Virus record (IMG/VR): IMGVR_UViG_3300043395_000705
Span: 1-33,835 of that record
Length of the DNA stretch: 33,835 bases
Direction: 5' to 3' (one strand)
From: a virus
Positions 4,222 to 33,835 of this stretch are shown one piece after another. The position numbers and the translations under genes are program-made. The notes beneath the pieces are model-generated. The model did no database searches. It was given only the letters and a program-made list of their open reading frames with translations, and was not told the DNA's origin. Position 1 is the first letter of the stretch, and each line of letters starts with the position of its first letter.

Positions 4222-4515
4222 ATGAATATCACTTGGACTATCTCCCAACTTGACCGACAAACCTCTGATGGTTTTGTCACCACGGCCCACTGGCAAGCAG
4301 TTGCAACAGATGGGGACTACTCTGCATCCATCATCAACACTTGCTCATGGACAGGCGAACCCACTGTTTCTTATGATTCTTTGACTCAAGCTGATGTGTT
4401 GGCTTGGGTGTGGCAGTCTGTGGATAAAGAGGCTGTAGAGACCGCTTTGGAGGCTCAGATTGCTGAACAAAAGGCTCCTAAGATTGCAAGTGGCTTGCCC
4501 TGGGGAAATGAATGA
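4222..4515 (+). CDS. Small fibre-associated protein (DUF7936-like)
   Basis: This 97-residue protein starts two bases after the tail fibre stop. It has the pattern ITWTISQLDR...TAHWQAVATDGDY...LTQADVLAWVWQ, ending with an Ala/Gln helix and a proline-containing LPWG tail. I recognise this pattern from small proteins encoded next to tail fibres in aquatic phages (DUF7936, from memory). No catalytic residues are evident. The position suggests a fibre accessory or assembly protein, but that is inference. Its stop overlaps the next start by four bases (ATGA at 4512). Confidence 0.7.
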   Translation: MNITWTISQLDRQTSDGFVTTAHWQAVATDGDYSASIINTCSWTGEPTVSYDSLTQADVLAWVWQSVDKEAVETALEAQIAEQKAPKIASGLPWGNE

Positions 4516-9981: not shown

Positions 9982-10061
9982 ATCGGCATCCAGATCAAGA
10001 GTCCAACGCAAGCCACAAACAATGTGGCCACGGTGATTTTTTCTGACAAAGTTTCATGCAT
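9978..10061 (-). CDS. 27-residue single-transmembrane microprotein
   Basis: ATG at 10061 (minus strand) opens MHETLSEKITVATLFVACVG and closes after LLIWMPI with TGA at 9978-9980. GGAG lies seven bases upstream of the ATG. The start overlaps the recombinase stop and the TGA overlaps the next ATG as ATGA, so it fills the only gap in an otherwise chained operon. Residues about 9-27 form one membrane segment. Its size is below usual gene-calling limits. Tiny membrane proteins can modulate host membrane enzymes or lysis; no function can be given. Confidence 0.55.
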   Translation of the reverse strand: MHETLSEKITVATLFVACVGLLIWMPI

Positions 10062-10737
10062 AGGTTGACTCCAGGTTGAGGCGTTTCAAAAGGTTGGAGG
10101 CCTGTGTTGGCCCCCAGGCTACATTGCCACGGGGTGTGGCCACGCCGCGAGCTTCAAGGGCTGCAGCAATGTCTCTCAGGGTGCTGGCACCAGATCTGGC
10201 GATGATGTCGCGCACGATGGGGCCAACCCGGTCGGCATACTTGTCGGCCTTGGCCATCACGGCCTTGACACCGATGGCAGACCCGATCTGAGGTGTCGGG
10301 CAGCCCAGGGTGCGGCCCTGTGCTTTGACCTGGGCCAGCGCAGCCTTGGTGCGCTCGCTGATCTTGCGTGCCTCCCACTCAGCAAATACGGCCATCATCT
10401 GCAAGAAGGTGCGGTCTGCCTCGGGCATGTCGGCACAGACGAATGGCACGCCAGACTCAAGCAAGCCGCTGATGAAGTGGACATTGCGTGCCAGGCGGTC
10501 GAGTTTGGCAATAACCAACATTGACTTGGTGCGCTTGGCCATGGCCAGAGCTGCAGCCAGTTGCTCGCGGTCGTTTTTGCGGCCAGACTCAACCTCGGTG
10601 AACTCGGCCACCAGCTCGGCAGCACCAATGTGCTTGGCCACAGCAGCACGCTGGGCATCAAGGCCCAGGCCAGACTGACCCTGGCGGTCGGTGGAGACTC
10701 GGTAGTAGGCGACGAATTTGCCGGTGTGTGGTGCCAT
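10054..10737 (-). CDS. Serine recombinase (resolvase/invertase family)
   Basis: This 227-residue protein has the small serine recombinase layout. The catalytic serine is Ser15 in YYRVSTDRQG, with the partner arginines in AKLDRLARN (residues 78-85) and ESGRKNDREQL after the E helix. A C-terminal DNA-binding part (residues about 165-225, STLRDIAAALEARGVATPRG) resembles the recombinase helix-turn-helix. GAGGAG precedes ATG 10737; the longer frame adds only seven residues. It could resolve multimers, invert DNA or integrate the phage. No tyrosine integrase is present, and I found no clear invertible segment next to it. Confidence 0.9.
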   Translation of the reverse strand: MAPHTGKFVAYYRVSTDRQGQSGLGLDAQRAAVAKHIGAAELVAEFTEVESGRKNDREQLAAALAMAKRTKSMLVIAKLDRLARNVHFISGLLESGVPFVCADMPEADRTFLQMMAVFAEWEARKISERTKAALAQVKAQGRTLGCPTPQIGSAIGVKAVMAKADKYADRVGPIVRDIIARSGASTLRDIAAALEARGVATPRGNVAWGPTQASNLLKRLNLESTYA

Positions 10738-10747
10738 GGTCAGCTCC

Positions 10748-10954
10748 TCAAGCAGCAAAAGCCAAACGCTCGATGTAAGCCTCGCGGCCAGCGATCAATG
10801 TGCGCTGTGCCCAAGCGTGGGCCAAGCCGAACTGGTCAAACTCGGCAGCGATGCGGCCATCAATCCAAACCAGATAGTGGTTCTTGCGGAAGTGCTCGAC
10901 CTTGACGGTGAAGCCGGTGGCCTTGCTGGTGAGGGTGGTGATCTTGGTGGTCAT
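10748..10954 (-). CDS. Small protein, first gene of leftward operon
   Basis: This 68-residue protein has a strong ribosome site (AAGGAG) before ATG 10954. Its sequence alternates polar beta segments (TGFTVKVEHFRKNHYLVWID) and helices (FGLAHAWAQRTLIAGREAYI), suggesting a compact alpha/beta fold. It is the first gene behind the leftward promoter at about 11000, so it is likely expressed early. The recombinase gene follows ten bases later. No family recognised. Confidence 0.65.
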   Translation of the reverse strand: MTTKITTLTSKATGFTVKVEHFRKNHYLVWIDGRIAAEFDQFGLAHAWAQRTLIAGREAYIERLAFAA

Positions 10955-13323: not shown

Positions 13324-13550
13324 TCAAAAAGCCATATCGGCTACCAAAGAAAACAGGCCCACTGCCCGAGCGCTTCATCAGCGAGCGTGGCCAGGCCAGG
13401 GACATCTTGGCGGCCTGGGACTACAACAAGGACAAGGCCATGGTGGAGCGCATGCTGGTGGCCAGCGAAAAGATCTATGGCCAGGGATCAGCCGAGCGGA
13501 TCAGGCAGCACATGAAGGACATATACCGTGAGCGCAATGCCCATGATTGA
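13320..13550 (+). CDS. Small basic helical protein upstream of initiator
   Basis: I read this from GTG 13320 (overlapping the previous stop as GTGA), giving 76 residues, MIKKPYRLPKKTGPLPERFI..., rather than from an upstream ATG at 13200 that runs out of frame through the preceding gene. The rest is helical with ERGQARDILAAWDYNKDKAM and ERIRQHMKDIYRERNAHD. It overlaps the initiator gene by 23 bases. It could be a small replication cofactor, such as a helicase-loading partner, but this is only suggested by position. Confidence 0.6.
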   Translation: MIKKPYRLPKKTGPLPERFISERGQARDILAAWDYNKDKAMVERMLVASEKIYGQGSAERIRQHMKDIYRERNAHD

Positions 13551-14553
13551 CAACATCGTGCCCTTCAGCATCCCCAAAAAGCCCAAGGTAAAGCTCAAGG
13601 ATCCGCTTCCAGATCAGCGCAGCCTGGCCGTGATCCCGATCCGGGCATGTACCGACAGACGGCTCACCGAGGCCATGATGCGCACCCTGCTGTTGATTTG
13701 CAGCTACTGCAACCGTGCTGGCATCACCTGGGTTGGCCAGGCCAAGCTGGCCGAACAACTCAAGGTCAGTCAGCAAGCAGTCAGCCGCCAGGTGGTCAAG
13801 TTGACCAAGCTGGGCTACCTAGAAGTGGTCTGGAAGGCCAAGCCAGGCGAGCGCATGAACACATGGCGGGTGATCTTTGACCCGTCAATCAAGGCAGCCG
13901 ATGCCATCAGCATCACATCAACCATCGAGGACACAAGGCCACCAGTCATGCAAAAGATCGACAAGCAAGCCATGGAAGAACCGGTCAGCAGGGCCGGTCA
14001 ACAGAAAATCGCCAAGCTCATGCAGGGCGCTCTCAAGTCAGTCAAACCACAACCAAAGGAGTACACCATGCCATCAGGCAACGACACATTGACAGTCAGG
14101 AAAATGAAGGCCGAGATTGCCAAAAAGCGGCAGTCGAAGGGGACTCACGTACAACCTCCAGATGTTGTACCTCAAACTCCTCAACAGCCTGTGGATAACT
14201 CATTTACTCAAATTGATGAGATACAACCTACAGACCCAAAAATTACAACATCCAGAGGTTGTACAAAACACCGAACAGACTCTAGTCAACAAGTATTTAA
14301 AGATATATTTATTAAAAGAAGTCTAAATGTTTTGAACAACCAAAACGATGAAATGTTGATCGGATACTTGACCGATCTGGACTTCACCGCCGGTCAGGTC
14401 GAGCAGGCGCTTGACGACCTGCTGGCAGCGGCCAGGCGCGAGGGTGTCGAGCCCCCCAAACGGCTGGAGTGGTGGATCAATGCAGTGATCGAGCACCAAT
14501 CCGATGCCACGGCAAGGCACCTGGAAGGCTCAGGAAGCCCTGCAAAACCATGA
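13528..14553 (+). CDS. Replication initiator, lambda O-like
   Basis: The 341-residue protein has an N-terminal winged-helix domain (residues about 38-118: LTEAMMRTLLLICSYCNRAG, AKLAEQLKVSQQAVSRQVVK, GYLEVVWKAKPG), similar to lambda O and RepA-like initiators. A polar low-complexity linker (about 130-270) follows, then a C-terminal helical domain with QVEQALDDLLAAARREG and RLEWWINAVIEHQ. Start GTG 13528 has AAGGA at good spacing; in-frame ATGs at 13537 and 13543 do not. The DNA encoding the linker holds iterons, a DnaA box and an AT-rich run, as in lambda where the origin lies inside gene O. No helicase or polymerase gene is present, so the protein should recruit host replication enzymes. Confidence 0.85.
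   Translation: MSAMPMIDNIVPFSIPKKPKVKLKDPLPDQRSLAVIPIRACTDRRLTEAMMRTLLLICSYCNRAGITWVGQAKLAEQLKVSQQAVSRQVVKLTKLGYLEVVWKAKPGERMNTWRVIFDPSIKAADAISITSTIEDTRPPVMQKIDKQAMEEPVSRAGQQKIAKLMQGALKSVKPQPKEYTMPSGNDTLTVRKMKAEIAKKRQSKGTHVQPPDVVPQTPQQPVDNSFTQIDEIQPTDPKITTSRGCTKHRTDSSQQVFKDIFIKRSLNVLNNQNDEMLIGYLTDLDFTAGQVEQALDDLLAAARREGVEPPKRLEWWINAVIEHQSDATARHLEGSGSPAKP
14149..14170. repeat. Iteron 1, GTACAAC-N8-GTTGTAC
   Basis: Perfect seven-base arms around CTCCAGAT. The same geometry and core (TCCAGA) recur at 14243-14264. Confidence 0.8.
14190..14198 (-). promoter_or_regulatory. DnaA box TTATCCACA
   Basis: The plus strand reads TGTGGATAA, the exact complement of the strong E. coli DnaA box TTATCCACA. 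It lies between the two palindromic iterons, so chance occurrence is less likely. Confidence 0.7.
14243..14264. repeat. Iteron 2, TTACAAC-N8-GTTGTAC
   Basis: Six-base perfect arms (TACAAC/GTTGTA) around ATCCAGAG, with the same eight-base spacer and TCCAGA core as iteron 1. A half copy (TACAACCTACAGA) starts exactly 22 bases upstream, about two helical turns. Confidence 0.8.
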
Positions 14554-14846
14554 GCTGGTACACAGGTAGCATCCCAGCCCTTCAGCGCGTTGTAGGCCGT
14601 TTAAATCGGTCTGTCCAAATCGCAGACGAACGTATGGGTTTTGTACAAGCCCGGCAGATCGAGGCGTGTCCGGCTGCTGGCAGACCGGCGGCCCTATATG
14701 CGCCAGCGTGTGCGCCTGCGATCCGCGCCCGACGACGCGCCCGGAACGCGACCCTTGCCCCCCCACCCCCTACGGTAGCGTCCGGGGGTCAGTCTAAAAT
14801 TTTCCTCACTTTTTCCCGCAAGAGAATTTTCCCCACTTTTCCCTGA
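14550..14846 (+). CDS. Doubtful 98-residue ORF after initiator
   Basis: ATG 14550 overlaps the initiator stop as ATGA, the operon's usual junction. The first 40 residues (MSWYTGSIPALQRVVGRLNR, SVQIADERMGFVQARQIEA) look like a helical protein. The rest is Arg/Pro/Ala-rich and runs through GC-rich intergenic-looking DNA and the direct repeats at 14798-14843, which is atypical of coding sequence. It may be real but shortened or eroded, or only an open frame. Confidence 0.3.
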   Translation: MSWYTGSIPALQRVVGRLNRSVQIADERMGFVQARQIEACPAAGRPAALYAPACAPAIRARRRARNATLAPPPPTVASGGQSKIFLTFSRKRIFPTFP

Positions 14847-14880: not shown

Positions 14881-15153
14881 ATGGCCACTAACTATGAGAT
14901 GAGACCCAACAGTGGGTCGCTGTTCAAAAACAAGGACATGAGGCCCGACAAGAAGGATCCCAACTTGGCTGGCAAGATCATGCTGCCTGACGGGACTGTG
15001 CACTGGTTCAAGGGCTGGACGAAGACCACCCAGGCTGGCGAGAAGTGGATCTCTTGTCAGATTGGCGACAGGTGCAAGGAGCAGCCCATGGCCAGCTCGG
15101 TGCCGCCTTTGGGTGCCGCACCGGTTGACAATGATGACGATATACCGTTCTGA
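14881..15153 (+). CDS. Small protein with SSB-like acidic C-terminal tail
   Basis: The 90-residue product has AAAAGGAG upstream of its ATG. Its body (GSLFKNKDMRPDKKDPNLAG, GKIMLPDGTVHWFKGWTKTT, GEKWISCQIGDRC) looks like a compact beta domain related to DUF736-type phage proteins. The last residues, DNDDDIPF, match the C-terminal tip by which bacterial single-stranded DNA-binding proteins recruit partners. It is therefore a candidate DNA-associated factor that docks host replication/repair proteins; a full OB fold is not evident. The stop overlaps the next ATG (TGATG). Confidence 0.7.
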   Translation: MATNYEMRPNSGSLFKNKDMRPDKKDPNLAGKIMLPDGTVHWFKGWTKTTQAGEKWISCQIGDRCKEQPMASSVPPLGAAPVDNDDDIPF

Positions 15154-32043: not shown

Positions 32044-33835
32044 TGGCCAACATCCCACTTGATCAACGTCTGAGCCAAATGCTGCCAAGCGCAGCACCGG
32101 CAACCCCTGCTGAAGACATCGCATTGGAGCCCATGCCTGGCGCGGCCCAGGTCATGGAAACCGACACACCGCCAGAAGCTGATCCTGGCACGCCCAGCAT
32201 GGAAGAGGGAATCCAGGTTGCTGGCCCTGTCGATGCGGCCATGCGCAAGCTCATCACCCGGCAGGCTGCCAAGGCCGAACGCAATTTGGTGCCAGATGCT
32301 GCGCGAGCTGCTGAAGGCGAGCTGCCCGATGCCGTCAAGGCTGGCCGGTTCAAGCTGATCCCAGAAGCTGACCAAACCCTGACAGACACGGTCGGCGCTG
32401 CCGTCAAGGCCCGGCAAGCTGCAGCCCCCAACATTGGCAAGCCCAGCCCCACCGCTGCCGAGCGTCTAGCCGGTGTGCCAGAAGAACCCTTCAACCTGTC
32501 GCGCTACCAGACCGAGGATGCCGCAGCCATTGTGGGCGGCGTGGCCGATGCGCTTGGGATCAAGACTAAGGCGGTGACCTTTGACGAAATCAAGGCCAAG
32601 GCGGCAGAGTCTGGCATCTCTGAGAATTTCCTGACCAGGCTGATCGGCAGCGATGGCCGCATGATGGCCAATGCCGTTGAAACCTACAAAGCGCTGGAGG
32701 TGCTGGAGTCCAGCGCCAACGAGCTGGATCGGCTCTTCAAGCTGGTCAACACTGGTGCTGCCACCGATGTTGACAAGCTGGTGCTGCGCCAGCAGATCGC
32801 CTTCCACGGCCTGATTCAAAAGGGTGTCAAGGGCATCCAGACAGAAACCGCACGCGCCCTGTCTGTGTTCAGAATTCCCCGCGATGGGACAGCGCCTATC
32901 GTGCGCCAGGTGCTGGATGAATATGGTGGCGATGCCGCCCTGGCCGACATGGCCAAGAGCTACCTGGCCCTGGAGTCGCGTGCAGCTCAAAATGCCATGA
33001 TCGAGAAGTCGATGATGTCGGGCATCAAAGATGTGTGGTTTACCACCTACATCAATGGCCTGCTGTCATCGCCTGTGTCGCATGCAAAGAACGTGGTCTC
33101 CAACGCCATGTTTGGGTTGTATCAGATCCCCGAGAGACTGATTGGCGCTTTCTACAGCAACGTGCTGCCGCCAGGCGTGCGCTCATGGAAGTCACTGATA
33201 CCTGGCACCGAGGCCGAGAAGATCGCCTATGACGAGGCATTGACCATGGCGCAGTCGCTGCGCAACGGGATCATTGAAGGCATGCAACTGGCCAGCACTG
33301 CATTCAAGAAGAACCAGCCCAGCGACTTGATGAGCAAGATTGAGGCGCAGCGCGGCATGGACGTGCCGCCCATCAGCTCTGCAGCCTTTGGCATTGAGTC
33401 TGATAAATGGTTTGCCAAGGCGCTGGACTACTATGGCACCGCGATCACGTTGCCTGGCCGGGCGCTGATGACCGAAGACGAGTTCTTTAAAGGCGTGCTC
33501 TACCGCATGGAGCTCAACACCCAGATCACCAGGCGCGGCAAGCAGGTCTACCGCGAGGGAATTGAGTCTGGCCTGACCGAAACCGATGCGATGGCAAAAG
33601 CATCGCTTGAGGTCGAAGGTTTGTTCAAGAATCCACCCAAAGATCTGGATGAAGCGGCAACCCTGTATGCCCAAAAAGGCACCTTCACTGCCGATCTGCC
33701 GCCTGCTCTGAAGAGTTTGCAGCAGGTATTCAATCATCCCATGCTCAAGGTAGTGGTGCCGTTCTTCAAGACACCGGCCAACATTGGTCTGCAGTTGATC
33801 GAGCGCACCCCATTCGCCCCGCTGTCATCTCAATG
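32043..33835 (+). CDS. N-terminal part of large internal/ejected virion protein (continues at base 1)
   Basis: The frame starts at ATG 32043 (TGATG overlap) and is open at the window end; in the circular genome it continues in frame to 1309 for about 955 residues. An N-terminal Pro/Ala-rich acidic part (about 1-65) is followed by helical regions, a segment WFTTYINGLLSSPVSHAKNV and SNAMFGLYQIPERLIGAFYS, and YGTAITLPGRALMTEDEFFK, all typical of LPD38-type large phage proteins (from memory). Probable last internal virion protein before the tail fibre gene. No enzymatic motif was found. Confidence 0.85.
   Translation, partial: MANIPLDQRLSQMLPSAAPATPAEDIALEPMPGAAQVMETDTPPEADPGTPSMEEGIQVAGPVDAAMRKLITRQAAKAERNLVPDAARAAEGELPDAVKAGRFKLIPEADQTLTDTVGAAVKARQAAAPNIGKPSPTAAERLAGVPEEPFNLSRYQTEDAAAIVGGVADALGIKTKAVTFDEIKAKAAESGISENFLTRLIGSDGRMMANAVETYKALEVLESSANELDRLFKLVNTGAATDVDKLVLRQQIAFHGLIQKGVKGIQTETARALSVFRIPRDGTAPIVRQVLDEYGGDAALADMAKSYLALESRAAQNAMIEKSMMSGIKDVWFTTYINGLLSSPVSHAKNVVSNAMFGLYQIPERLIGAFYSNVLPPGVRSWKSLIPGTEAEKIAYDEALTMAQSLRNGIIEGMQLASTAFKKNQPSDLMSKIEAQRGMDVPPISSAAFGIESDKWFAKALDYYGTAITLPGRALMTEDEFFKGVLYRMELNTQITRRGKQVYREGIESGLTETDAMAKASLEVEGLFKNPPKDLDEAATLYAQKGTFTADLPPALKSLQQVFNHPMLKVVVPFFKTPANIGLQLIERTPFAPLSSQ
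33602..33835 (+). repeat. Terminal overlap, copy 2 (pairs with 1-234)
   Basis: Same 234 bases as the window start, with nine synonymous differences, all within its last 108 bases. Marks the circular closure point. Confidence 0.9.

Follow-up and report, generated by a model that had tools for sequence, protein, structure and literature searches.

The window analysed here is the whole stretch of 33,835 nucleotides (nt) at positions 1-33,835 of IMG/VR virus record IMGVR_UViG_3300043395_000705. Very probably, it carries the replication origin of a phage within the linker-coding part of the phage's own initiator gene; the set of elements comprises two palindromic iterons, a half-iteron, a DnaA box and an adjoining AT-rich stretch. 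Interpretation of these elements as an origin lying inside the initiator gene is strongly supported. Computation yielded the elements, their conservation at the DNA level and the way protein and iterons covary; it also located the AT peak and detected no phage helicase, loader or polymerase gene. The features concerned are as follows.

13528..14553, plus strand: initiator gene, 341 amino acids, with a winged-helix N-terminal domain, a disordered linker and a helical C-terminal domain (HTH_36, E = 9e-6; PHROG matches; fold prediction)
13630..13890, plus strand: winged-helix DNA-binding domain, residues 35-121 (predicted local distance difference test score, pLDDT, mostly 84-91; winged-helix matches in PDB)
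13771..13785, plus strand: recognition-helix codons 82-86, with Gln82 and Ser86 covarying with the outer base of the iterons (association analysis; predicted helix 82-95)
14150..14169, no strand: iteron 1, palindrome TACAAC-N8-GTTGTA, TACAACCTCCAGATGTTGTA, 20 base pairs (bp), or 22 bp counting the flanking G/C; kept in relatives
14190..14198, minus strand: perfect DnaA box TTATCCACA, conserved at codon level
14222..14229, plus strand: half-iteron TACAACCT, starting exactly 22 bases before iteron 2; kept in close relatives
14244..14263, no strand: iteron 2, palindrome TACAAC-N8-GTTGTA, TACAACATCCAGAGGTTGTA, 20 bp, outer base pair mismatched, in a different frame from iteron 1
14275..14550, plus strand: helical C-terminal domain (residues 250-341) that presumably contacts the replisome (four-helix model, pLDDT 77)
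14283..14345, no strand: AT-rich stretch where unwinding presumably takes place; highest AT content in the window

A re-scan of the sequence recovered the iterons, the half-iteron 22 bases before iteron 2, the perfect DnaA box and the AT-rich run at the positions given by an earlier sequence-only reading. That reading described both iterons as 22 bp long; this is correct for iteron 1 with its flanking G/C, but iteron 2 is 20 bp. It also placed all elements in the coding sequence of the linker. The iterons and the box are indeed located there, while the AT-rich run already codes for the first part of the C-terminal domain.

The two iterons are the sole pair of same-arm palindromes no more than 200 bp apart anywhere in the window, and the 50-bp windows starting at 14283-14296 have the highest AT content of the whole 33.8 kb (82%). 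When the synonymous codons of the gene were shuffled 20,000 times, with protein and codon usage held constant, two same-arm N8 palindromes were obtained with P = 5e-5. The DnaA box alone is weak against chance, arising in 3.5% of codon shuffles (P = 0.035); its conservation in the sequences of relatives is decisive. A second exact DnaA box, TGTGGATAA, is present at window position 4419, outside the initiator gene and with no iterons around it.

Relatives of the initiator comprise 121 unique genes from viral contigs (IMG/VR), including 22 short genes resembling that of Methylophilales phage MEP301. The close relatives (L002-L009) are 75-96% identical over the shared part; many others are 32-50% identical. 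Iterons, DnaA box, half-site and spacing are kept free of gaps in the close relatives. For 11 of 14 divergent genes (the window's own included), the observed palindrome count is reached by 0-3 of 1000 codon shuffles. In 69 of 76 relatives, the AT peak immediately follows the final iteron on the 3' side; in all 76, the 80 bp beyond that iteron exceed the gene mean in AT content.

In most close relatives, the frame of iteron 1 gives Gln-Pro-Pro-x-Val-Val (QPPxVV) and that of iteron 2 gives Thr-Thr-Ser-x-Gly-Cys (TTSxGC); iteron frames differ in 29 of the 61 genes carrying at least two palindromes. Codons for conserved residues are invariant at 14 of 16 places inside the elements compared with 97 of 201 outside (P = 0.002); for a set of 25 sequences, the corresponding values are 9/12 and 21/93 (P = 5e-4). 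Linker tripeptides of the form VD[NK] (Val-Asp-Asn/Lys) are encoded by GTG-GAT in 75 of 77 cases, against an expectation of ~14% from the codon use of these genes. The codon preceding GTG-GAT has T as its final base in 72 of 75 cases, though the residue can be Pro, Ala, Ser, Thr or Asp. DNA rather than peptide has been kept; this is indicated by the same word in two frames, the frozen synonymous sites, the GTG-GAT bias and the preceding T. Chance and coding artefact are excluded by the codon shuffles together with the synonymous conservation. Repeats and box are thus conserved in related phages beyond third-position expectation, which supports the earlier proposal of an origin with a DnaA box inside an O-like initiator gene.

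The iteron core, CAAC-N6/8-GTTG, is constant across relatives; the flanking bases vary between phages and mostly match on both arms. Residues 82 and 86 are the top columns of the N-terminal domain by normalised mutual information with the base beside CAAC (0.50 and 0.47; the next column reaches 0.27). Both lie near the start of the predicted recognition helix, in its first turns. Among 31 representatives, Gln82 occurs with A (10/10), Arg82 with G (7/7), Lys82-Asn86 with T (6/6) and Lys82-Gln84-Ala86 with A (4/4). Gln-adenine and Arg-guanine are classical residue-base pairings. The best tree, computed without the recognition helix, has eight changes of the iteron base and eight of residue 82, and none of the sampled independent row pairs shows the opposite direction of base and residue change. 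L078 (Q, A) and its sister row L080 (K, T) have neither residue nor base in common; in L083, L088 and L140, the outer base differs and the spacer is similar. The pattern is strong, and this computed covariation is evidence that the initiator probably binds the iterons.

Presence of the DnaA box varies between clades. An exact box is found in 32 of 34 Gln82-Ala84-Ser86 genes and in 18 of 24 Arg82-Ala84-Thr86 genes. Where a gene has two palindromes and a box, the box is located between the iterons in 30 of 31 cases; its strand is the same in 73 of 74 boxes. The two main distances between iterons are 94 bp, in 25 genes, and 48 bp, in 20; the former goes with box-bearing Gln82 genes and the latter with Lys82-Gln84-Ala86 genes lacking the box. 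Since spacing follows box presence, the box-bearing segment looks like an optional, clade-specific module. The chances are about even that these genes represent an undescribed large family of phage initiators whose choice of origin depends on a short, readable code between residues 82/84/86 of one helix and one or two outer iteron bases, a code that has been switched several times together with the sites. In such a family, dependence on DnaA would reside in a removable segment of ~46 bp between the iterons, so that DnaA-assisted and DnaA-independent origins would occur side by side.

PHROG matches of the initiator are weak and fall in replication initiation and O-like families (E = 1.4e-6 to 2.5e-5; O-like 1.8e-6); in Pfam, nothing but winged-helix HTH_36 and related HTH models matched. 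The predicted winged helix resembles the N-terminal domains of RepA_N initiators 4pql, 4pt7 and 5kbj (Z 7.8-8.8), at scores tied with LexA, MarR and CRP folds. The linker (about residues 204-250) is predicted to be disordered. For the C-terminal domain, a Foldseek search with the modest model (pLDDT 77) returned nothing below E = 1. The best VIA-align matches were lids of AAA+ proteins, at Z 5-8, which is within the noise for helical bundles; no partner is named. One close relative, L007 (3922-4920, corresponding to window 13528-14550), has kept the N-terminal domain, iterons and DnaA box while its C-terminal domain has diverged. Its similarity falls off right after iteron 2, a pattern resembling an exchange of the replisome-contact domain at the origin.

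In the proposed mechanism, it is most likely a dimer of the N-terminal domain that would occupy each iteron palindrome; the covariation supports this indirectly. Residues 82 and 86 would read the base flanking the CAAC core. Steps beyond DNA recognition can be inferred as follows. Bound initiators, together with host DnaA at the box between the iterons, would bend the DNA; the resulting complex would open the AT-rich stretch that immediately follows iteron 2 on the 3' side, after which DnaB, primase and polymerase III of the host would be loaded via DnaA and/or the C-terminal helical domain.

A number of observations weigh against this account. The sequence-only reading expected cumulative GC skew to turn near 14.2 kb; a turn was looked for there and none was seen. 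Several genes of the Arg82 clade have degenerate palindromes only, and the Lys82-Ala84-Ser86 clade contains a mixture of A and T iterons. Independent pairs on well-supported branches number just 3-4, which is too few for sign-test significance alone. The DnaA box is found in 0 of 21 Lys82-Gln84-Ala86 genes and in 0 of 22 short MEP301-like initiators; DnaA is therefore not universal in the initiator family, and the box could have an alternative role in transcription.

The last point leads to a reading in which iterons and initiator do form the origin, while the DnaA box would have no part in helicase loading but act on transcription, either to activate the origin or to express downstream genes, in the manner of DnaA at lambda pR/pO. 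Transcription around the lambda ori is enhanced by DnaA, which also occupies box-like sites downstream of pO (PMC3985674). Absence of the box from whole clades which retain iterons and AT-rich stretch also fits this reading. However, a site held between the iterons and on one strand is what would be expected for part of a nucleoprotein complex, and a purely transcriptional box is considered possible but rather doubtful. It is improbable that the palindromes are instead operators, through which the protein represses or times transcription of its own operon while replication starts elsewhere. The fold of the N-terminal domain is common to the MarR, LexA and CRP regulators, and palindromes bound by dimers are typical of repressors; in this case, however, the palindromes are located more than 600 nt inside the gene, away from the promoter, and no second such pair within 200 bp is found elsewhere in the window. 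In addition, an AT peak follows each set, most Q82/R82 members have a DnaA box, and the PHROG matches are to initiators.

It is scarcely credible that the DNA words are conserved only because the linker peptide is. The peptides QPPxVV and PVDN do recur in many relatives, and 3.5% of codon shuffles produce a DnaA box. In contrast, one DNA word is read in two frames with frozen synonymous sites, the outer bases switch on both arms together, and disorder is predicted for the linker. The invariant GTG-GAT and preceding T, whatever the residue, refute a peptide origin barring some codon constraint. A replication origin embedded in the initiator gene is the reading which best accommodates these data.

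The window is a near-complete, circularly permuted genome, although the record is classed as linear; this is indicated by the overlap of its ends (bases 1-234 are 96% identical to the last 234 bases, 33602-33835) and by the location of both ends within one internal virion protein gene. Contig IMGVR_UViG_3300049009_000318 (33,137 bases; L008/L009) starts inside the origin's AT-rich stretch, where the two contig ends meet, one base short. Gene content of the window includes podovirus-type head, connector, tail and internal virion proteins, a terminase, RecE/RecT-like recombination proteins, a RuvC-like resolvase, a serine recombinase and a single-strand DNA-binding (SSB)-like protein. The phage is small and environmental, and apparently lytic. 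TerL is 73% identical to TerL of MEP301, which is the sole named protein relative of the initiator (33%); no close DNA relatives were found among named phages, and no relatives were found in plasmids or bacterial genomes.

The sequence-only reading held that the phage encodes no polymerase or helicase, and profile scans agree. No helicase or polymerase genes were found among the window's open reading frames scanned against PHROGs. The helicase-loader families DnaC/IstB and Phage_lambda_P and the DNA polymerase A family gave no match in the window or in 12 relatives; no DnaB was found in relatives. Rfam gave no match in the window. The gene next to the initiator on its 3' side, in the position occupied by P in lambda, is the following.

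14881..15153, plus strand: SSB-like gene (PHROG single-strand DNA binding protein, E = 1.9e-6)

Two further elements are located near the initiator gene. An imperfect 36-bp dyad, TGTCCAAATCGCAGACG-AA-CGTATGGGTTTTGTACA, is found at 14612-14647, ~60 bp past the initiator stop. It recurs downstream of 60 of 112 initiator genes (no more than 6 mismatches in a 25-bp core), with either asymmetry. The serine recombinase is encoded at 10054-10758 (PF00239, E = 3.6e-28). The dyad may be a site of resolution or crossover; with the recombinase, this would make a plasmid-like rep-plus-res cassette. Between the initiator and the SSB-like gene, at 14755-14795, there is a conserved C-rich stretch with a CCCCC...GGGGG hairpin, in which the loop is variable and the stem constant; this is possibly a terminator or a packaging site.

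How initiator and origin stay matched as they co-evolve is an old question, studied mostly in a few lambdoid phages. In the present family, one base and one residue switch together in dozens of natural variants, so that exchanging them offers a direct test. As the DnaA module is present in some members and absent from others, the contribution of DnaA can be compared with the rest nearly constant. The element set also allows an origin to be called in uncultivated phages with no encoded replisome, and is a source of candidate orthogonal minireplicons.

The layout resembles that of lambda, in which ori is located within the linker-coding part of O, interrupted-palindrome iterons in different frames are bound by O dimers, an AT-rich stretch adjoins them and the host replisome is used (PMC7466680, PMC5043065). 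The sequence-only reading regarded palindromic iterons as a departure from lambda; this is incorrect, as the four iterons of lambda (18-19 bp) are likewise interrupted palindromes (PMC7466680, PMC5043065), and palindromic iterons are consequently not new. Its term "lambda-type" is appropriate for the layout but does not extend to homology or partner protein. Alignment of the family against lambda O with hhalign gave a probability of 0.2%, Phage_rep_O is not among the Pfam matches, and no P-like partner was found; consequently, the protein is not classed in the lambda O family. Lambda has four iterons 20-24 bp apart, compared with two and a half over 114 bp in the window, and encodes the helicase loader P directly downstream of O where the window has the SSB-like gene. 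No DnaA box within one mismatch is present in lambda O or in the 2 kb around it.

MEP301 lacks polymerases (PMC8024684). Its gp55 is a related short initiator of 201 amino acids, 33% identical over the N-terminal domain, without linker, iterons or DnaA box. The MEP301-like genes (L010, L090-L118) likewise encode initiators of ~200 amino acids, with little after the N-terminal domain, and have no iterons in the gene.

RepA_N plasmids pSK41 and pTZ2162 and the PLE satellite RepA have a similar winged-helix N-terminal domain (Z 7.8-8.8), semi-palindromic iterons and a variable C-terminal domain (PMC5703833, PMC7145576). In pSK41 the origin is also central in rep, and the protein stretch encoded there is dispensable (PMC5703833). 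However, the window's protein has no RepA_N Pfam match, and its likeness in fold is tied with unrelated winged helices. No DnaA boxes are known in staphylococcal plasmids (PMC5703833). Iteron plasmids P1, F, RK2, R6K and pSC101 also combine iterons, DnaA box and AT-rich element (PMC5043065); their Rep_3 initiators are a different family, to which the window's protein does not belong. In repABC plasmids the origin is located in the initiator gene repC, next to an A+T stretch, but repC has neither iterons nor DnaA boxes (PMC3155836). No clear precedent for DnaA boxes inside phage initiator genes was found in the literature searched, a search with most subscription papers outside its reach. What is new here is the combination of an embedded, conserved, clade-specific DnaA box, a missing loader gene and a visible recognition code.
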